DNA from: an uncultured Granulosicoccaceae bacterium
Lineage (GTDB): Bacteria > Pseudomonadota > Gammaproteobacteria > Granulosicoccales > Granulosicoccaceae
DNA: 64,000 nt
Direction of reading: 5' to 3'
NCBI GenBank assembly: GCA_937922675.1
Contig: CALAJN010000005.1
Location: 186,001-250,000 of the forward strand
The position numbers were made by a program, and so were the translations under genes. Shown piece after piece: positions 26,671 through 35,638 of the stretch. The notes beneath the pieces are model-generated. The model was not told where the DNA came from. It did no database searches and worked only from the letters and a program-made list of their open reading frames with translations. Numbering within the stretch: position 1 is the first letter of the stretch; each line of letters begins with the position of its first letter.

Positions 26671-27226
26671 TATCCGTATGTACCTTGGGGAACTGGCCTC
26701 CCCGGTGGCTGAAGTGACGTAAGTATAGGAGGCTCACTCGCAACGCCGGCTCCCGCTCGCACCTGCCGCGCTTGGACTGCAGATCAGACGTCCAGCACGG
26801 ATGCAGTGATCACGATCGAGAGCTTTCCGCCTGCGTGCCGTTAGCTGCCGGACCCAACCGGATCGCCACTATCGCGTCATCCAAGGACGTGTGTTTTGGG
26901 CGCTTACGCTCTTTTTTGTGTGATCCCCGTCACTAGATCAAAAGAAACCCGAAACAAATGGCGAGCAGACTTTCTGCTCTCGTGGCTCCTGTCTGAAGCG
27001 TCACACAGCCCAAAATTGTTAGTCAAATCTCACTTTTTTGGAAAAATCAACCGAAATTGCGGCTTTTCAGCGTACGGGCCGTGCTTGGTTGCATGTCCAC
27101 GTGCTGAGTGTGTGAACGCGATGTGAACATACGCCCTTTTTTGGTCACCACCGGTTCACCTGCTCAACTCTACATTCGGCACAGCTCGAAACGAGCGCAA
27201 TGACTTTTCCACTTGAGGATCGATTA
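26671..27226. other. Divergent intergenic region hsdM / fasciclin gene
   Basis: These 556 bp contain no convincing gene. The middle (about 26920-27060) is AT-richer than its surroundings, with A- and T-tracts. The right end carries the GAGGA ribosome-binding site of the fasciclin gene at 27215-27219, and the left end the candidate TATACT of hsdM. A small open frame at 26896-27126 lacks a ribosome-binding site and family features and was not called. Confidence 0.5.
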
Positions 27227-28693
27227 ATGAAGTACGGAAGACTGAAGAGTGCAGCCCTGGGGCTGGTAACCGCTTTCGTGGTGTCGGCATGTTCGGACGA
27301 CGGCGTCTCAATTACTGGCGACGGTGATGCACAAGCGCTGTCAGCCGAAGAGCAGTCGGCAGGTGGTGGGTCCAGCAATATCGTCACCACAGCCGTTGAA
27401 GCCGGCGATTTCACTGTCCTCGCCGCTGCCCTGCAGGCAACCGGTCTTGACCAGGTCCTGGCAGATGAAAGCCGCGAGTTTACTGTTTTCGCTCCTAATG
27501 ACGCAGCCTTCGCAAAGCTCGGTGACGAGACCATCGCCGCCTTGTTGAGTGACACCGACGCGCTCTCCAACATTCTGCTTTATCACGTAATCGCTGACGC
27601 AAGCGTAGACGCGGCAACAGCCATCAGCCTTGCTGGAAGCACAGTAGAGACCGCAAACGGTCAGGACATCGCCCTGTCCCTGGACGGTGGCAATCTGTTT
27701 GTCAACATGTCTCAGGTCATTGCTACTGATGTTGCGGCAAGCAACGGCATCATCCACGTTATTGACACTGTATTGCTGCCACCGTCGGCAGAAGACACTG
27801 ACGCCGCACCGGGTAGCATTGTCGAGGTAGCAGCGGCTGCAGGTTCTTTTAACACTTTGGTGGCTGCGCTTCAGGCCACAGGGCTTGACGCCACACTAGC
27901 CGACTTGTCGTCCACGTTCACGGTATTTGCGCCTACCGATGACGCGTTCGCGGCACTGGGCAACGACACCATCCAGGCACTGCTTGCTGATCCGGATACC
28001 TTGTCCGACATCCTTCTGTATCACGTCATTGCGGATCAGGCTGTTGATTCAACGACCGCAATCAGCCTGGCCGGTGGAACAGTTGCCACGGCCAACGGCG
28101 ACGAAATCGCGCTTTCGTTGCGCGACGGATCACTGTTCATCAATGACTCTCGCGTCATTACCACTGACATTCAGGCAGCAAACGGAGTGATCCACGTGAT
28201 AGATGCGGTACTCACACCACCTGCGGCAGGTGATTCAGACGAACAGGCACCGACTACCGGTGGCGACACAGCAGCAGGCACAATTCTGGATGTGGCTCAG
28301 GCCGCTGGGTTCAGCACTCTGGTTGCCGCAGTTCAGGCGACTGGCCTGGACGGAGCTCTGGGTCACCCGGGCGACACCTACACCGTGTTTGCACCGACTG
28401 ATGCAGCATTTGCCGCCTTGGGTCAGGAAACCATCAACACCCTGTTGGCCAACCCGGATGTACTGCGAGACATCCTTCTCTACCATGTTGTCCCCGGTGC
28501 GGTCTTTGACTCCAACGCAGTGACCGGTCTTGTCGGTATCGATGTGCAAACTGGAAACGGCGATACGGTACAGGTCAATCAGCGTAGCACCGGCCTGTTC
28601 ATCAACGACTCCCGCATAACAACGGTTGATGTGCAAGCGACGAATGGCATCATTCACGTGATCGACACCGTACTGATTCCGCCAAGCAACTAA
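27227..28693 (+). CDS. Fasciclin (FAS1) triple-domain lipoprotein
   Basis: A 488-residue surface or periplasmic protein. Signal peptide MKYGRLKSAALGLVTAFVV ends in lipobox VSAC near residue 22, so it is probably lipid-anchored. Three FAS1 domains follow, at about residues 50-180, 195-330 and 350-485. Each opens with a TLVAALQATGLD-like helix and contains FTVFAPTDDAFAALG and DILLYHVI, closing with NGIIHVIDTVLLPPS. FAS1 domains mediate adhesion or matrix interactions; the ligand is unknown. A GAGGA ribosome-binding site seven bases upstream supports the ATG at 27227 over an upstream in-frame ATG at 27200. It stands alone, with its own terminator downstream. Confidence 0.93.
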   Translation: MKYGRLKSAALGLVTAFVVSACSDDGVSITGDGDAQALSAEEQSAGGGSSNIVTTAVEAGDFTVLAAALQATGLDQVLADESREFTVFAPNDAAFAKLGDETIAALLSDTDALSNILLYHVIADASVDAATAISLAGSTVETANGQDIALSLDGGNLFVNMSQVIATDVAASNGIIHVIDTVLLPPSAEDTDAAPGSIVEVAAAAGSFNTLVAALQATGLDATLADLSSTFTVFAPTDDAFAALGNDTIQALLADPDTLSDILLYHVIADQAVDSTTAISLAGGTVATANGDEIALSLRDGSLFINDSRVITTDIQAANGVIHVIDAVLTPPAAGDSDEQAPTTGGDTAAGTILDVAQAAGFSTLVAAVQATGLDGALGHPGDTYTVFAPTDAAFAALGQETINTLLANPDVLRDILLYHVVPGAVFDSNAVTGLVGIDVQTGNGDTVQVNQRSTGLFINDSRITTVDVQATNGIIHVIDTVLIPPSN

Positions 28694-28757: not shown

Positions 28758-29405
28758 TTCAGATCGAATGAGGCGTTCCACAGATGAGCCACTCCTGCCT
28801 TCCAATGGGCATAGCCTGACAGCGTTATTGGACACTCGCCCTCACGTCCGGCAAGCGATTACACCTCCAAGACCATCGAGTCGCTGCACAGTGCGGCCGT
28901 CAAAGCGATGCAAAAATGGGTTTACTTCAACCTTGTTCAGTAACGCCAATCCTGCTGCCAGAGAGGCAACTCAAGTGCCCTTCAATTGCAGCCGTTTTTC
29001 TGTACGGCGAGCTGTCGCCAACAAGACCAGTTAGATCATTTCTGCGAGGCGGCCACTAACAACACGGCATCGACCTGTGTGTCCAGCCCTTTTACCAATA
29101 GATCGACCGCACCGTCGGCTGACCTGTTACCGCCAAATGAGGTGGATATCAGAATCTTTGCAGTGATTCAATCGGTGATGCGAGCGGTGCCCTGCGTCAC
29201 GGTGTGCTTGGGTTGACTAAACATTCTGTGCCTGGCGAACGAGCTACACATTGTTTGTAGCTGTTCTTGGTCCAGGCGCACCCGTAACTGACCACCTCTA
29301 GCGATTGCTAGCGGATAGGCACGCAAGCTTGGTACAAAGCACCCAAAGCAACAACAATCCGCTCACCAAGAAAACAAAGGGTCGCACGCGGACGATAGCC
29401 AAACC
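28758..29405. other. Non-coding stretch before the BON array
   Basis: About 650 bp with no supported gene. Short open frames on the plus strand (28768-29034 and 28986-29216) have no ribosome-binding site, are rich in Arg/Ser/Thr as expected of out-of-frame GC-rich DNA, and show no family resemblance. It may be degraded coding sequence, but no protein family can be recognised. Confidence 0.4.
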
Positions 29406-29707
29406 GATCAACCAGGAACGCTCGCCGCTCACGGTGCGTTTTGTTTTTTTTGAAACGTACACACTGCCGACTCGCAAGTCGGCAGTATTTGTCGCAGACA
29501 ATGACAGCAAGCTCGACCCAAAGACATCTCAGCTCCGCCCGAGTACCGTCCTGGCCTACCGCCTACAAGTCACTTTACGACTCTGTATGTTTCTCACAAT
29601 GCCCTTGCAAGCCTACGCTCCGATACTGAACACATCGAAACAGCAGCTGCACATCGCGCTGCACTTCGAACCGATTCTTCTACCCATCTAATCATTGGAG
29701 CTTTATT

Positions 29708-29977
29708 ATGAACATTCGTCACATCACAACAGCTATGGTCTTCGCTTCAGTTGTCGGCTTTGCTGGCGCCGCGTCTGCAATCACGACGACGGGCAACCTG
29801 CAACAGGACGTTCACTCCTCGCTAGGTGGCAACGGCAACATCACCGCTACGGTCAGCGGCGGCACGGTCACGTTATTCGGCAACGCAAATGCGCTGGACA
29901 AAGCCAAGGCAGAGCGAGTGGCAGAGTCGTATCCCAATGTTGATCGTGTAATCAATCTGGTGAATACACCAAGCTAA
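29708..29977 (+). CDS. Secreted BON-domain protein, copy 1
   Basis: An 89-residue protein with signal peptide MNIRHITTAMVFASVVGFAG to about ASA at residue 23, leaving a mature protein of about 66 residues that is essentially one BON domain (GNLQQDVHSSLGGNGNI, TVSGGTVTLFGNANALDKAK, YPNVDRVINLVNT). BON domains occur in OsmY and related periplasmic proteins and are thought to bind lipids or membranes. The ATG has TTGGAGC upstream. It differs from copies 2 and 3 at only a few positions, e.g. Asn2 for Lys and Val11 for Ala. Confidence 0.92.
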   Translation: MNIRHITTAMVFASVVGFAGAASAITTTGNLQQDVHSSLGGNGNITATVSGGTVTLFGNANALDKAKAERVAESYPNVDRVINLVNTPS

Positions 29978-30016
29978 AGAGCCGGAGCCGTCTCAACAGC
30001 GATGACCTGACGAAAA

Positions 30017-30083
30017 GGCAGAGCGAACGCTCTGCCACCAGTACCAACCAGAGCCGCTGCCCTCCGGGTCAGCGGCTCTTTGC
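30017..30083 (+). terminator. Paired 3' hairpins after BON copy 1
   Basis: Hairpin A is GGCAGAGC-GAAC-GCTCTGCC (30017-30036). Hairpin B is AGAGCCGCTG / CAGCGGCTCT (30050-30079) with a 10-nt loop and a short T tract. B is the likely intrinsic terminator; A may protect or regulate the RNA. Confidence 0.7.
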
Positions 30084-30429
30084 GTTGTCCTTGACGAATA
30101 GATTGTGGCTCGCCCACGATTGTCATGCCGATCAACCAGGAATGCTAGCCGTTCAAGTGAGTCTTGGTATTAGTGGAAAGCACACACTGCCAACTCGAAG
30201 TCAGCAGTATTTATCGCAAGCATTGACAATACGCTCGACCCAAAGACATCTCAGCTCCTCCCGAGTACCGTCCTGGCCTTTCACCTACGAGTCACTTTAC
30301 GACTCTGTATGTTTCTCACAATACCCTTGCAAGCCTACGCACCGACACTGGACACATCGAAGCAGCGGGTGCACATCGCGCTGCACTTCGAACCGATTCT
30401 TGTAACCGACTAATCATTGGAGCTCTATT

Positions 30430-30699
30430 ATGAAAATTCGTCACATCACAACAGCTATGGCCTTCGCTTCTGTTGTCGGCTTTGCTGGCGCCGCGTCTGC
30501 AATCACGACGACCGGTAACCTGCAGCAGGACGTTCACTCCTCGCTAGGTGGCAACGGCAACATCACAGCCACGCTCAGCGGCGGTACGGTCACGTTGTTC
30601 GGCAACGCAAATGCACTGGACAAAGCCAAGGCAGAACGAGTGGCAGAGTCGTATCCCAACGTTGATCGTGTAATCAATCTGGTGAATACACCAAGCTAA
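30430..30699 (+). CDS. Secreted BON-domain protein, copy 2
   Basis: An 89-residue secreted BON protein nearly identical to its neighbours. Relative to copy 3 it keeps ITTTGNL at the mature N-terminus and has TLSGGTVTLF (Leu in place of Val). Signal peptide as in copy 1, with Lys2. It has its own leader and hairpin pair, so it is probably transcribed separately from copies 1 and 3. The ribosome-binding segment is TCATTGGAGC. Confidence 0.92.
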   Translation: MKIRHITTAMAFASVVGFAGAASAITTTGNLQQDVHSSLGGNGNITATLSGGTVTLFGNANALDKAKAERVAESYPNVDRVINLVNTPS

Positions 30700-30738
30700 A
30701 GGGACAGAGACGTCTCGACAGCGATGGCCCGACGAAAA

Positions 30739-30805
30739 GGCAGAGCGAAAGCTCTGCCACCAGTACCAACCAGAGCCGCTGCCCTACGGGTCAGCGGCTC
30801 TTTGC
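30739..30805 (+). terminator. Paired 3' hairpins after BON copy 2
   Basis: Hairpin A is GGCAGAGC-GAAA-GCTCTGCC (30739-30758), with a GNRA-type loop. Hairpin B is at 30772-30801 with the same stem as copy 1, followed by TTTGCG. Confidence 0.7.
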
Positions 30806-31120
30806 GTTGTCCTTGGCGAATCGATTGTGGCGCGCGCACGATTGGCAAGTCGATCAACCAGGAACTCTAGCCGCTCACGGTGAGTCTTGGTTCTAGTGAA
30901 AAACACGCACTGCCCACTCGCAAGTCAGCAGCATTTATCGCAGGCGATCGAAAGTAAACCGTCCTGGCCCAGCGCCTACAAGTCACTTTACGACTCTGTA
31001 TGTTTCTCACAATACCCTTGCAAGCCCACGCTCCGATACTAGAACCATCGAAACAGCAGGTGCACATCGCTCTGCACTTCGAACCGATTCTTCTACCCAT
31101 CTAATCATTGGAGCTTCACT

Positions 31121-31390
31121 ATGAAAATTCGTCACATCACAACAGCTATGGCCTTCGCCTCAGTTGTCGGCTTTGCTGGCGCCGCGTCTGCAATCTCGAC
31201 GACCGGTAACCTGCAACAGGACGTTCACTCCTCGCTAGGTGGCAACGGCAACATCACCGCTACGGTCAGCGGTAGTACTGTCACATTGCTCGGCAACGCC
31301 AATGCGCTGGACAAAGCCAAGGCAGAGCGAGTGGCAGAGTCGTATCCCAATGTTGATCGTGTAATCAATCTGGTGAATACACCAAGTTAA
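31121..31390 (+). CDS. Secreted BON-domain protein, copy 3
   Basis: An 89-residue secreted BON protein. Substitutions are Ser for Thr in ISTTGNL and SGSTVTLLGN where copies 1 and 2 have SGGTVTLFGN. Signal peptide, BON domain and ribosome-binding site are intact. Its leader lacks a block of about 35 bp present in copies 1 and 2 (after position 30957), so any leader function dependent on that block would be lost here. Confidence 0.92.
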   Translation: MKIRHITTAMAFASVVGFAGAASAISTTGNLQQDVHSSLGGNGNITATVSGSTVTLLGNANALDKAKAERVAESYPNVDRVINLVNTPS

Positions 31391-31429
31391 AGCACTGGAG
31401 CCGTCTCAACCACGATGGCCTGACTGAAA

Positions 31430-31496
31430 GGCAGCGCGAACGCTCTGCCCTCAGTACCATCCAGAGCCGCTGCCCTAAGGGTCAGCGGCTCTTTGC
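31430..31496 (+). terminator. Paired 3' hairpins after BON copy 3
   Basis: Hairpin A (31430-31449) has one mismatch in GGCAGCGC / GCTCTGCC. Hairpin B (31463-31492) is intact, with AGAGCCGCTG / CAGCGGCTCT and a short T tract. Confidence 0.65.
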
Positions 31497-31843
31497 GTTG
31501 TCCTTCCCGTTTCGTTCTATCCATGTCGTTCTATCGTTTTGTTCAACCTGGCGACATTCATGGCAATTAGCTACGCACAAGACAGTTGGCTGACTCGCCG
31601 TCCCAGCTGTCAAGACGCTCCCTTTCCGGTCGGATGAGACACCATTTGACGACGTATCTGCGTAAATTACTGACCTCTGGTTCCAGACTCATTAATTCAT
31701 GTCGCTGGATAATCAACAAAGGATCTGCGACCCCACGATGTGACACCCGTTGAATGCACTCGGCATGCCCTGGAGATGTCCGACTCTCCGACTCGATAAG
31801 CCGGCAGTAGCGCCCCGGTTGTGCCTATGGCGCGATGTGCCAT
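31497..31843. other. Non-coding stretch between BON array and toxin remnant
   Basis: No gene is supported in these 347 bp. The segment around 31785-31811 (CCGACTCG...CCGGCAGTAG) faintly resembles the unit 1 leader palindrome and might be a decayed leader, but the match is too short to rely on. Confidence 0.35.
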
Positions 31844-31954
31844 ATGGGTGCGACACTTTTGCTGCGCGACAAGTACGTTTACGCGGAAGGGGCGATTCGG
31901 GGAATGACTCTATGGAAACTCTCAAAGGCTTATTCTGAGCGACCGCATCGGTAG
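31844..31954 (+). pseudogene. Remnant of a TumE-like (DUF6516) toxin, N-terminal 36 residues
   Basis: From ATG 31844 the frame reads MGATLLLRDKYVYAEGAI then RGMTLWKLSKAYSERPHR and stops. This matches the start of TumE/DUF6516 toxins, which begin with a LLxRxKxVxxDGAIxEMxxW pattern followed by a His-Arg-Tyr-Lys-Tyr-like segment. The rest of the toxin (about 60-80 residues) is gone, and the HTH partner follows 35 bp later. I infer an internal deletion. Recognition is by eye from a short stretch, so it is moderately uncertain. Confidence 0.5.
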
Positions 31955-31989
31955 AAGACGCAAGTCCCGGATACAAGCGATTTGTCGAT

Positions 31990-32316
31990 ATGTGGAATCG
32001 AGCATCTATCGAAGAGGGTGACCATGGCGAAGTACATTTGAACTTCGAGGACTTTGCAATGCTAGCCGAGGTACTCACTCCGAAGCGTTTGGAGATCTTA
32101 AAGACGCTTCGACGATCCGGTCCAATGAATGTGCAAGCGCTATCTCAGGCCGTAGAGCGCGACTACAAAAATGTTCTCGTAGATAGTGCTGCACTCGAGG
32201 ACGCCGGATTGATGCAGAGAGACGACCTAGCGCGATTGATTGCTCCTTGGGATGTAATTGTTGCTCACCTCCGCGGTACCGTTCTGCCACGGCTTTCCCG
32301 GGTCAATAGTGCCTGA
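31990..32316 (+). CDS. HTH antitoxin-like regulator (TumA/HVO_A0114-type), probably 5'-truncated
   Basis: A 108-residue winged-helix protein. The core FEDFAMLAEVLTPKRLEILK, then ALSQAVERDYKNVLVDSAAL and EDAGLMQRDDLARLIAPWD, is the signature of the HVO_A0114-type family that accompanies TumE toxins as antitoxin or autoregulator. The usual N-terminal beta-rich segment is short or missing and no good ribosome-binding site precedes the ATG at 31990, consistent with a deletion that also removed most of the toxin gene. It may still fold as a DNA-binding module. The stop is 17 bp from the edge of the IS3 remnant. Confidence 0.6.
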   Translation: MWNRASIEEGDHGEVHLNFEDFAMLAEVLTPKRLEILKTLRRSGPMNVQALSQAVERDYKNVLVDSAALEDAGLMQRDDLARLIAPWDVIVAHLRGTVLPRLSRVNSA

Positions 32317-32333
32317 GCGTATGCCGAGCGTTT

Positions 32334-32923
32334 TTAGTGTTTTGTCTGCAACTCGTGAGTGATGAATTCGCTTCCATTATCAGATCGAATTGCCTGTGGG
32401 CTACCGTATCTAGCGATTACCGTCTTAACACGCGAAGTACATCGCTGTTGCGCAGAGACGTCCCCACTTCGATGGCGAGACAGTAGCCCGTCGCTTCGTC
32501 CTTGATGGTCAGGCATCGGAATTTGCAGCCGTTGCCATAGCTGTCGTGGACAAGGTCAACGGCCCAGACGTCATTTCGCTTGATCGCCGGTTGATCCAGG
32601 GCCTTACCGGTGCGAATCTTTCTGCTCGGCTTGTAGGGCGGCAGAGCAAGGCCCACCAAGCGCCAAACTCGATACACGCGCTTGTTGTTGACTTGCCAAC
32701 CGCGCAATCTGAGACTTCCGGCTGCCAGTCGGTATCCCCACGCTGGATGCTTTGCCGAGATCAGTCTGAGCGCACGTATCAGGTGGCGATCTCGTTTTTG
32801 CATTCTGGAGCAATAGGGGAGCCCGGAGCGTGGCGTCGACAACAGTTCAGACGCCCGACGTTGAGTCAGCCCACGGCCGCAGGCAAACAGCGCCATGGCT
32901 CGCTGTGTACGTGGGCTCACCAC
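32334..32923 (-). pseudogene. IS3 transposase OrfB, frameshifted and truncated
   Basis: The frame from 32923 reads RTQRAMALFACGRGLTQRRA, then HPAWGYRLAAGSLRLRGW and the first catalytic Asp in VWAVDLVHDSYGNG, typical of IS3 integrase domains. It stops at 32417 after RNSDVLRVLRR. A shifted frame continues as VKTVIARYGSPQAIRSDNGSEF, holding the second catalytic Asp, and ends at FITHELQTKH (32334). So there is a single-base indel near 32425-32435 and loss of everything after about residue 190. Non-functional. Confidence 0.88.
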
Positions 32924-33189
32924 TTTTTTGCAGCAATCTCCTTCATCACATCAACCTCAAGATCGCGCTCGGCGAGTAGTTTCTTCAGGCGCGTGTTCTC
33001 GACACGAAGCGTCTTCAGCTCCTTGACGTCGTTGACTTCCATCCCGTCGTAGAGGCGACGCCAGCGATAGATCGTCTGGTCGGTTATCGCGTGATTCTTT
33101 GCGGCGGCTGCAATGGAGGTGGCGTCAGCCTCACGCAAAATCGCGACAATCTGCTCGCCCGTGTGGCGCTTCTTCTTCATCTCGGTCAT
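32917..33189 (-). CDS. IS3 transposase OrfA
   Basis: A 90-residue DNA-binding subunit with an N-terminal helix-turn-helix (HTGEQIVAILREAD, ITDQTIYRWRRLYDG) and a C-terminal leucine-zipper region (KTLRVENTRLKKLLAERDLE). It ends at the AAAAAAG slippery site used by IS3 elements to make the OrfAB fusion by -1 frameshifting. The gene is intact, but its partner is broken. Confidence 0.88.
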   Translation of the reverse strand: MTEMKKKRHTGEQIVAILREADATSIAAAAKNHAITDQTIYRWRRLYDGMEVNDVKELKTLRVENTRLKKLLAERDLEVDVMKEIAAKKW

Positions 33190-33429
33190 CCTCGTGCTGA
33201 GGAAAACCTATCAGAACTGCTGGCCTAGAGCTTGGATAGCACTCCAACGTCAACTGATCTGACAACCATCGTACTGACAGCCTGAATGGGTAACTGTCAG
33301 ACCGTGTCGCGACCAGCACACATAAATGAAACCTTCCGTCTGCGGGTTTGAGCTACTCGTTTTAGCGCAACGTATTATTTCCTTCCCGTTGAACCATTTA
33401 AACGTTTTGAGTTACACGGTCTGGCTGAC

Positions 33430-33467
33430 AAAACGCAAAAAGCCGCTGACCCAAGAGCCAGCGGCTT
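33430..33467 (-). terminator. Intrinsic terminator of BON copy 4
   Basis: On the minus strand AAGCCGCTG and CAGCGGCTT form a 9-bp stem with a 10-nt loop, followed by TTTTTGCGTTTTG. The stem core (GCCGCTG/CAGCGGC) is the same as in hairpin B of the three tandem BON units. Confidence 0.8.
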
Positions 33468-33527
33468 GTACGCAAATCAGCCTTGCGCTTTAACCTTGTT
33501 CGTTATCAAACACCTGAAACTGCAGTC

Positions 33528-33803
33528 CTAGCTTCGGGTGTTGACCAGGTCAACGACCCGCTCCACATCAGGAAAGGAGCTTGCCACACGCGCTGCACGC
33601 GCCTTGTCTACCGCGTTGGCATTGCCAATCAGGGTGACCGTGTTGCCAGAGACACTGACTGTGATGTTGCCGTTGCCACCCAGCGCTGAATGCACGTCTT
33701 GCTGGAGGTTGCCCGTGCTCGTAATTGCTGAGGCAGGACCAGCAAATGCGAGGGCCGCAACAGACGCAAATGAGAGGGCCGCGACAATATTGAATACCTT
33801 CAT
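33528..33803 (-). CDS. Secreted BON-domain protein, diverged copy 4
   Basis: A 91-residue relative of the tandem BON proteins on the opposite strand. The signal peptide MKVFNIVAALSFASVAALAF ends near PASA; the BON domain keeps TGNLQQDVHSALGGNGNI, SGNTVTLIGNANAVDKA and FPDVERVVDLVNTRS. The ATG at 33803 follows a GGAG-type site (CGGAGATCACC); an in-frame extension to 34001 covers the leader and is rejected. Leader blocks shared with the tandem array are seen at about 33830-33910: ACGCTCCGATAATG, CATCGAAACA and GGTGCACATCGC, read on the minus strand. The copy therefore moved or was duplicated with its control region. Confidence 0.9.
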   Translation of the reverse strand: MKVFNIVAALSFASVAALAFAGPASAITSTGNLQQDVHSALGGNGNITVSVSGNTVTLIGNANAVDKARAARVASSFPDVERVVDLVNTRS

Positions 33804-34225
33804 GGTGATCTCCGATAAACGATTGAGTTGAATTTGGTCGAACAGCGCCGCGATGTGCACCGCTTGTTTCGATGAGATCATTATCGGAGCGTGCATTTGC
33901 CCTGGTCTTGTCAAGAACATACGACGCTGTAAGGTCGCGAGTTTCGCCTCGCGATCAGTTGGCGGGTACGCCACTTTGCAGCAATGCCTTGATGTCATCA
34001 AAACGGGTGCTGGCCGCGATCAGGCCGAGTTCACCCTCGCCCTTGAGCAGAACCAGGGTGGAGCAACTCTTATCGATGACATGGACTTCCGGTGACAACG
34101 CCAATGTTCCATTGGATCATCATCCCCTACCGTTCGTCAGGCAGTACCGCCATGCCCGAGATCGAACGTGTTGCCGAGGCGTATCAACATCAATTGCAGG
34201 GCCGTGCAACTGCAACACGTGGGGC
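33804..34225. other. BON copy 4 leader plus small-ORF region
   Basis: The left 120 bp is the conserved leader of BON copy 4. Beyond it are two overlapping small frames. One on the minus strand, 33955-34104, codes a 49-residue sequence from a TTG with protein-like composition (EVHVIDKSCSTLVLLKGEGE, then LGLIAASTRFDDIKALLQSG). One on the plus strand, 34104-34229, codes 41 residues (IERVAEAYQHQLQGRA). Neither has a convincing ribosome-binding site or known family; the minus one could be the tail of a lost gene. Confidence 0.35.
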
Positions 34226-35638
34226 CTAACGCTCGCGATAGCCTAGCAACTTGTTCTCGACAATTTCACTGGCAACGGTGTCGGGGACCGCGTCCTGCCA
34301 GTCTCTGCCCTCTGCAATGGCTTTGAGCACCTCACGTGAATATATGTTGAGCAGCTCTGTATCACTGGATTCAATGTCGCGAATAAACCCGTTTTCAATG
34401 AGGTGCTTGAACAGGTACTGCAGTCGATCATTGAATGCAAGACGCGATAAATCGCTCAGCGAACCATCGTCGGCACGCTCCGGATAGACATACAGTCGCG
34501 TGTTGTCCGGAAACAATTTTCCAAATCCCTCGAGGATGCCACCCTCTACACCGGCGTAGCGATCCTCATCGAATATCTCTCGTACATTGATCATCCCGAG
34601 TACGATTCCGATTTGATGATTGGTGTACTGACGGAAGTAGGCACGCAGGGAGAAGTAGCGCGTGTAGTCAGACACCATGACGCTATAGCCCAGTGCATTC
34701 AACAGTTGTATTCGAACCACCAGGTCCTCTTCAGGCACGTTCAAGTCGTTGCCCAAGGGGTCATTCAGGGAAATCTCTGCAAGCACAATTGAGTTGCTCT
34801 GATCGACCTCCTCTTTTCTGGCAAAGGTCTTGAACCCTTGCTCTATCATGTCGACGTTAAGCCTGGTGACCGGTTTGAACGAGCCTCGGATCGTCAATAC
34901 ATTCTTCTTGTAGAGCAACTCCGAGGGCACAGCGACAGAACCATCGGGACGGATCATGATGGCGCGAGTCTTCCAGCTGCGTATCAAATGCAGGTTGATC
35001 GCACACGGGTTGACGTCTTCAAAGTACGGCCCCTTCAGCTCGATGGAGTCGATCTCGATACGGCCTTGCGCAAGATTGTCAGTCAATGAGTCGATCAGCT
35101 GTTTCGGGTCTTCAAAGTAGTAGTAGGCGGCATAGACAAGATTCACACCGACCACACCCAATGCTTCCTGCTGCGCCTCGGCCTCAGCATCTCGCATGCG
35201 TACGTGCACGATCACATCCGAGGGCTCGGCACCCGGGTACATCTGAACCCGCACACCGCACCAGGCGTGGCACTCATTCTTGCGATTGAAGCTCTTGGCC
35301 GACACCGTTGCCGCATACGCAAAGAATCTGGACGCCTTGGGTCGTGAGGCACTTACGCGCTCGACAACCAACGTGTACTCTTTTTCCAGCATCGCCTTGA
35401 CACGTCCCTGAGACACGTAGCGGCTGCCCTCCTGCACGCCGTAGATTGCATCCGAAAACTGCATGTCGTAGGCGGACATGGTCTTGGCGATCGTGCCAGC
35501 CGCGGCCCCTGCCAGAAAAAACTGACGGGCAACTTCCTGGCCTGCACCAATCTCGGCTATTGACCCGTATTTTTTCTCGTCCAGATTGATGCGCAACGCC
35601 TTGTCGAGCGTTGTGCGACTGCTGACCTTGGCGTGCAT
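34226..35638 (-). CDS. Conserved uncharacterised protein (470 aa)
   Basis: I recall relatives of this protein in several proteobacteria but no experimentally proven role. The opening VSSRTTLDKALRINLDEKKY, then GSIAEIGAGQEVARQFFLAG and KTMSAYDMQFSDAIYG, is distinctive. Other notable stretches are HAWCGVRVQMYPGAEPSDVI, EALGVVGVNLVYAAYYYFED and LGMINVREIFDEDRYAGVEG. There is no signal peptide or membrane helix, so it is probably cytosolic. Some homologues are labelled nicotinate-nucleotide adenylyltransferase, I believe by automatic annotation, but no HxGH nucleotidyltransferase motif is present. It appears monocistronic, with its ATG at 35638 and about 290 bp of upstream sequence. Confidence 0.7.
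   Translation of the reverse strand: MHAKVSSRTTLDKALRINLDEKKYGSIAEIGAGQEVARQFFLAGAAAGTIAKTMSAYDMQFSDAIYGVQEGSRYVSQGRVKAMLEKEYTLVVERVSASRPKASRFFAYAATVSAKSFNRKNECHAWCGVRVQMYPGAEPSDVIVHVRMRDAEAEAQQEALGVVGVNLVYAAYYYFEDPKQLIDSLTDNLAQGRIEIDSIELKGPYFEDVNPCAINLHLIRSWKTRAIMIRPDGSVAVPSELLYKKNVLTIRGSFKPVTRLNVDMIEQGFKTFARKEEVDQSNSIVLAEISLNDPLGNDLNVPEEDLVVRIQLLNALGYSVMVSDYTRYFSLRAYFRQYTNHQIGIVLGMINVREIFDEDRYAGVEGGILEGFGKLFPDNTRLYVYPERADDGSLSDLSRLAFNDRLQYLFKHLIENGFIRDIESSDTELLNIYSREVLKAIAEGRDWQDAVPDTVASEIVENKLLGYRER

Follow-up and report, generated by a model that had tools for sequence, protein, structure and literature searches.

Why does a bacterial genome keep the same small gene three times in a row, each time with its own leader and its own 3' hairpins, and is the leader maintained by selection or alike only because the copies are young? 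We addressed this question in a window of 64,000 nucleotides, which is the whole stretch of DNA under study and belongs to a genome assembly of 3.63 Mb in 20 contigs. Direct repeats, open reading frames (ORFs) and inverted repeats confirmed the presence of three units of about 0.7 kb, each with leader, gene and 3' hairpins, as given in the preliminary description. The array itself stands but its limits, previously set at 29406 and 31496, do not: unit 1 starts at about 29381 and the similarity of unit 3 ends at about 31507, with a repeat period of 722 and 691 bp for the leader-gene core. A spacer opens each unit, followed by the promoter core, the 5' UTR, an ORF of 89 codons and a pair of 3' hairpins. 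Relative to the unit 2 protein, the products of units 1 and 3 are 97% and 96% identical, respectively.

All three units lie on the plus strand. In unit 1, a spacer with no conservation beyond the neutral level (29381-29574) precedes the promoter core (29575-29627), which contains an inverted repeat, half-sites spaced by 11 bp and the motif CGATACT at 29621-29627, and which shows 0 mismatches to the genus pattern (model R2 E=5.7e-8). The predicted 5' hairpin of the transcript (29635-29669, RNAfold z=-3.2), the single-BON gene with its stop codon (29708-29977) and two inverted repeats follow; of the latter, one forms the first 3' hairpin (30017-30036) and the other a terminator-like hairpin (30050-30079), after which comes TTTGCGTT. 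Unit 2 repeats this order with promoter core at 30297-30349 (1 mismatch, R2 E=1.7e-6), predicted hairpin at 30357-30391 (z=-2.0), gene at 30430-30699 including the stop, and inverted repeats at 30739-30758 and 30772-30801. The corresponding features of unit 3 are found at 30988-31040 (0 mismatches, R2 E=2.2e-7), 31048-31082 (z=-2.0), 31121-31390, and 31430-31449 and 31463-31492.

The description of the gene as triplicated is correct for the direct repeats but overlooked a fourth, diverged copy, which lies inverted on the minus strand of the same window and encodes a 69% identical protein. This copy has a single-BON gene of 91 codons plus stop (33528-33803) and the same type of promoter and terminator, with a promoter core at 33880-33932 (0 mismatches, R2 E=1.6e-6), a predicted 5' hairpin at 33838-33872 (z=-1.9) and a terminator-like hairpin at 33440-33467 in the fold of the 3' region. 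All four products exceed the gathering cut-off of Pfam BON (PF04972, 27 bits), with 38.9, 35.1, 35.4 and 38.3 bits for units 1 to 3 and the fourth copy, respectively. A transposase-like ORF pair (32417-33189, minus strand; HTH_Tnp_1 52.3 bits, HTH_21 28.7, and rve 26.9, below the cut-off of 32.6) separates the triple array from the inverted copy. On the upstream side, the array is adjoined by the gene of a protein with three fasciclin domains (27200-28693, plus strand; 343.5 bits).

We counted the variable columns among the three array copies in each part of the unit. They amount to 4 of 53 in the promoter core, 15 of 80 in the 5' UTR, 46 of 159 ungapped columns in the spacer, 23 of 270 in the coding sequence, 11 of 51 at fourfold sites and 20 of 115 in the 3' region. 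Variability in the promoter core is significantly below that of the spacer (p=0.0013) and, marginally, below that of fourfold sites (p=0.053), from which the 5' UTR is statistically indistinguishable (p=0.82). Pairwise pS between array copies ranges from 0.14 to 0.19 and pN from 0.015 to 0.025. Within the array, therefore, clear constraint is confined to the promoter core and the protein. The leader had been described as almost as well conserved as the gene and as a possible target of selection; within the array, both statements apply to the 53-bp promoter core, and the 5' UTR drifts at the pace of fourfold sites. When set against synonymous divergence among the array copies, most of the leader would fit an ordinary recent duplication. 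The decisive evidence for selection on the leader comes from the conservation of promoter and hairpin in relatives.

BON genes are present in 15 of 57 relatives, and 36 distinct leaders of these genes align without gaps over about 60 bases. The alignment left out rows with the anchor missing or outside the distance window, namely L009, L015, the second genes of tandem pairs and a gene of G015 whose leader is longer. The leader is absent from the BON genes L009, in the window's genome (G000), and L015, in G001, and from the second members of tandem pairs. With the C of CGATACT taken as position 0, the constant columns comprise TTAC (-46), GTA (-36), CAA (-24), G-AA (-14) and CGATA-T (0 to 6). 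The 53-bp core reads as TTTACA-N4-TGTAAA, then GCAA half-sites 11 bp apart, then the -10-like box CGATACT; half-sites GTAA, GCAA and GCAA recur at 11-bp intervals, and the last one stands 11 bp from GATACT. No conserved -35 hexamer was found in the 36 aligned leaders. The inverted repeat TTTACA-N4-TGTAAA may be the site of another protein. A sigma-28 promoter for CCGATA was rejected, as a hand count finds no TAAA at the spacing required by the consensus.

A pattern search allowing up to 2 mismatches returned 93 sites in 22 of the 27 genus genomes, compared to 3 with the reversed control. With at most 1 mismatch, the pattern was found in 5 of 274 genomes across the class, namely two genus members and three genomes with single matches elsewhere. 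Outside the genus, only G311 and G316, with 5 and 4 sites, exceed the control level among the 48 family genomes, and both belong to one sister genus; G313 and G029 have 1 site each, and the control gave 5 matches over the same 48 genomes. In the fetched loci, 58 of the 93 distinct sites are followed by a BON-family ORF, called with an HMM iterated from the window proteins, and at least 4 of the remaining 35 are interrupted by a contig end. Proteins of 83 aa are encoded downstream of 4 of the 5 sites in G311, and the one tested scores 26.9 bits with BON (cut-off 27). Comparison across genomes demonstrates that this predicted promoter of 53 bp, with its fixed spacing, is common to mini-BON genes throughout the genus and, in the sister genus, to the BON-like genes of G311.

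The 9 sites in the window's genome comprise 7 at BON genes, one at a regulator operon (E=4.0e-4) and one at a membrane/oxidoreductase gene. The last site lies upstream of a membrane protein with an oxidoreductase-like continuation, as judged by eye, both in the window's genome (G000:C17:52310-52362, minus strand) and in G003 (C2:181102-181154, minus strand); this gene is likely a further regulon member. Other followers, in few genomes each, are a glutaredoxin-like gene and LpxR-like genes, named by eye.

Eight of the 93 distinct sites are directly upstream of one response regulator, which is 225-227 aa long and in two cases has a longer start; 2 further sites reach it via a small ORF. In the window's genome, this regulator matches Response_reg (98.2) and Trans_reg_C (89.2), which with the adjacent kinase gene identifies it as OmpR/PhoB-type. 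The kinase matches HATPase_c (76.0) and HisKA (27.2, cut-off 26.9), and scores 20.2 for HAMP, below the cut-off of 25. The operon runs from an exported-looking small ORF through regulator to kinase, followed by a convergent gene that by eye is rpoH-like. The small first ORF (L153:3255-3524, minus strand) comprises 90 codons, looks exported, matches nothing in Pfam and is possibly a feedback or sensor partner. At the same position, G023 and G014 have a small ORF of different sequence.

We then relied on a promoter model built from sequence only, with 44 BON promoters and zero regulator sites, which was run on 48 family genomes (E<=0.01). This model recovers the promoter of the regulator operon in 11 of the 20 genus genomes that have the regulator ortholog (E<=1e-85), including that of the window: G000, G001 (partial match), G005, G007, G012, G014, G015, G017, G018, G023 and G024. 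It finds no regulator-operon site in the other 9, and it also recovers the regulator promoter in G316, of the sister genus, where the ortholog is downstream of 1 of 4 sites and is 75% identical to the regulator of the window's genome. These results establish that the same putative promoter precedes the operon of an OmpR/PhoB-type response regulator and a histidine kinase. Among 16 good genomes, the presence of the regulator goes with that of sites (11/1/1/3, p=0.027, uncorrected for phylogeny), a count that is partly built in because the regulator's own promoter is included among the sites. G026 has the regulator but lacks a site at E<=0.01; in G019 a site is accompanied only by regulator paralogs of 55% identity, and G311 has 5 sites yet only a 57% identical paralog. 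For the 7 regulator-negative congeners, the best match is a 54-55% identical paralog in 6, and no match passes in the seventh.

When the G015 regulator, rather than that of the window's genome, was scanned against NCBIfam, the best match was TIGR01387 of heavy-metal response regulators (260.7 bits, below the cut-off of 279.2), and PhoB TIGR02154 reached 179.2 bits, below 296.2. This G015 regulator has its closest, sub-cut-off match among CusR/CopR/HprR-type proteins, from which the present system differs, as far as known here, in binding-site type and targets. The promoter resembles those of the Pho regulon, which have an 11-bp distance to the -10 box, in that direct half-sites 11 bp apart replace the -35 element. 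It is unlike them in the half-site GYAA, from which the PhoB sequence differs, and in the additional upstream inverted repeat. The PhoB box is described as 22 bp long, with two 11-bp direct repeats (PMC3978041).

We propose, with a probability of about 0.7, that the units are self-contained output genes, all belonging to one autoregulated two-component regulon whose output is mainly mini-BON proteins, which have been amplified repeatedly to 3 tandem copies here and 4 in a relative. A signal, perhaps perceived at the envelope, would lead the kinase to phosphorylate the regulator. The regulator would bind the tandem half-sites, which substitute for a -35 element at a distance of 11 bp from the -10-like box, much as PhoB does, and would activate its own operon together with the BON genes. 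The 5' hairpin could protect the mRNA from decay or present its loop to a factor, and export would bring the small BON domains to their site of action, the periplasm or outer envelope. Copying the entire unit would presumably raise output through dosage.

A different explanation is that the promoter box serves another regulator or sigma factor, with the response regulator operon being merely one more target like the BON genes. TTTACA-N4-TGTAAA could be bound by a dimer of some different protein, the box CGATACT is similar to the stationary-phase (sigma-S) -10 box, and both G311 and G019 have sites without a close regulator ortholog. We consider this explanation unlikely, as the BON-only model returns the promoter of this one regulator across congeners and sister genus, despite 27-113 regulator-like candidates at first look in each genus genome, and direct half-sites with 11-bp spacing suit OmpR/PhoB-type proteins. 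Still less probable is that an ordinary gene was simply duplicated in tandem not long ago, with leaders that are alike only because the copies are young. The 5' UTR and the spacer do vary like, or above, fourfold sites, but the promoter core is less variable than the spacer and persists in 22 of 27 genus genomes, and in G003 the spacers barely align, yet promoter, UTR and gene remain alike.

The leader could also act as a translational switch, through an anti-Shine-Dalgarno element or an upstream peptide, since in the window's genome CTCCGATA can pair with the ATCGGAG or ATTGGAG that precedes the ATG, and an open frame of about 34 codons is present in the leaders of units 1-3. We find this hardly credible. 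The pairing segment is the -10-like box and thus probably not transcribed, and in relatives such as G003 the leaders carry different ribosome sites and show no complementarity; for these reasons we rejected the anti-Shine-Dalgarno switch. The upstream peptide was rejected because its motif falls in different frames among copies and the start codon is not conserved, the frame in L005 being without ATG.

To characterize the 5' end of the predicted transcripts, we folded a stretch of 52 nt that begins at the fifth base downstream of the -10-like box in 91 distinct leaders, one of which was counted twice. BON leaders fold better than the others, which include truncated BON units (mean z -2.39 for 57 and -1.19 for 35, respectively, p=1.3e-4), and a good fold is seen in some regulator leaders too (L074, z=-3.9). 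Covariation was measured on 21 of the 59 listed hairpins, chosen by eye for one register, a choice that biases the set toward structure. In these 21 hairpins, 82.5% of the cells pair compared to 64.6% after shuffling, and 33 cells with double changes were counted compared to 11.9; none of 500 shuffles reaches either value. Double changes occur in 7 of the 9 pairs, and slid structures pair at most 39.2%. Further pair types in the same hairpins are not above shuffles (212 of 500). The transcripts of many BON genes are thus predicted to start with a hairpin, and compensatory changes demonstrate that it is kept in the 21 aligned cases. The hairpins of the window are of another length class and were judged by folding alone (z -1.9 to -3.2).

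A hairpin at the extreme 5' end of the mRNA, predicted here, recalls the stabilizing 5'-terminal stem-loops of ompA and papA (references 92-95 in PMC3997798). It differs from them in the compensatory changes and in the loop, mostly of 6 nt and A-rich, found across paralogs. Rfam returned no family at gathering score in 5 relative loci and only 4 sub-threshold matches, up to E=5, in window positions 29000-34500. A CsrA-type GGA site in the hairpin was considered and set aside, as the clade of the window has no GGA there.

The unit products had been described as minimal secreted BON domains. Pfam supports the BON domain; the signal peptide was judged by eye, and the products look exported. The single BON match spans residues 29-85 of 89, whereas OsmY and DolP have two BON domains. 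The products of units 1-3 contain no C and no W, and hence have neither the lipid-anchor cysteine nor a tryptophan like W127, the lipid-binding residue of DolP (PMC7806268). For the unit 2 protein, a low-confidence AlphaFold model, built on 4 sequences with a mean pLDDT of 55 and used for fold order only, shows the helix-strand-strand-helix-strand order of BON. Its best PDB matches are OsmY, DolP, BonA and gonococcal DolP, all weak (E 0.004-0.037, and 0.004-0.016 for OsmY, DolP and BonA). The window genes share the BON domain with OsmY, DolP and BonA and differ from them in their control through the present promoter type.

In the literature searched on BON proteins, their regulation, tandem copies and Granulosicoccus, the titles and abstract openings do not describe this system. 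While an autoregulated two-component regulon is of a known kind, neither this particular regulon nor its box, hairpin or amplified single-BON outputs appear to have been described there. The circuit looks like one of marine bacteria related to Granulosicoccus, for which a kelp context is given in PMC9238374. Overall, one response circuit of a genus, with regulator, binding site and targets, is predicted from sequence alone. The function of single-BON proteins becomes testable because a regulator, an operator and a clean target family are named.

Around the same small gene, promoter, RNA hairpin and copy number change and persist in different ways. Hypervariability marks the 5 nt that separate the hairpin from the -10-like box (29628-29632, 30350-30354 and 31041-31045): 4 of 5 columns vary in the window array compared to 39 of 407 elsewhere (p=5e-4, tested post hoc). 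The array of G003 (L036) has 5 of 5 compared to 60 of 407 (p=9e-5, also tested post hoc), with the next 47 nt invariant, whereas G005 has no such hypervariability and AGTTTC is common to its four copies. A more far-reaching reading, which we hold as tentative and rather doubtful, is that an undescribed two-component system of the Granulosicoccaceae drives a lineage-amplified mini-BON set. The mRNAs would start with a new covarying hairpin whose conserved A-rich loop of 6 nt would be read by a specific factor, and some lineages would tune array copies individually via discriminators.

The suggestion that the array is expandable gains indirect support from three observations. The tandem array of G003 comprises four copies, and this genome gave nine matches altogether. 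In multi-copy genomes, 33 of 51 BON proteins have their nearest relative, among the 57 compared, in the same genome. In addition, contig ends, taken as the terminal 400 nt, contain 9 of the 93 sites compared to 2.97 expected (p=0.0036), a limit that was chosen after some cases were seen. No relatives were confirmed in the viral contigs searched. Two contigs of the window's genome, C11 and C14, both begin inside BON coding sequence and are identical over 73 bp, and further near-identical copies may be hidden there by the assembly. Given this overlap and the enrichment of contig ends at BON units, arrays are probably under-counted by assembly.
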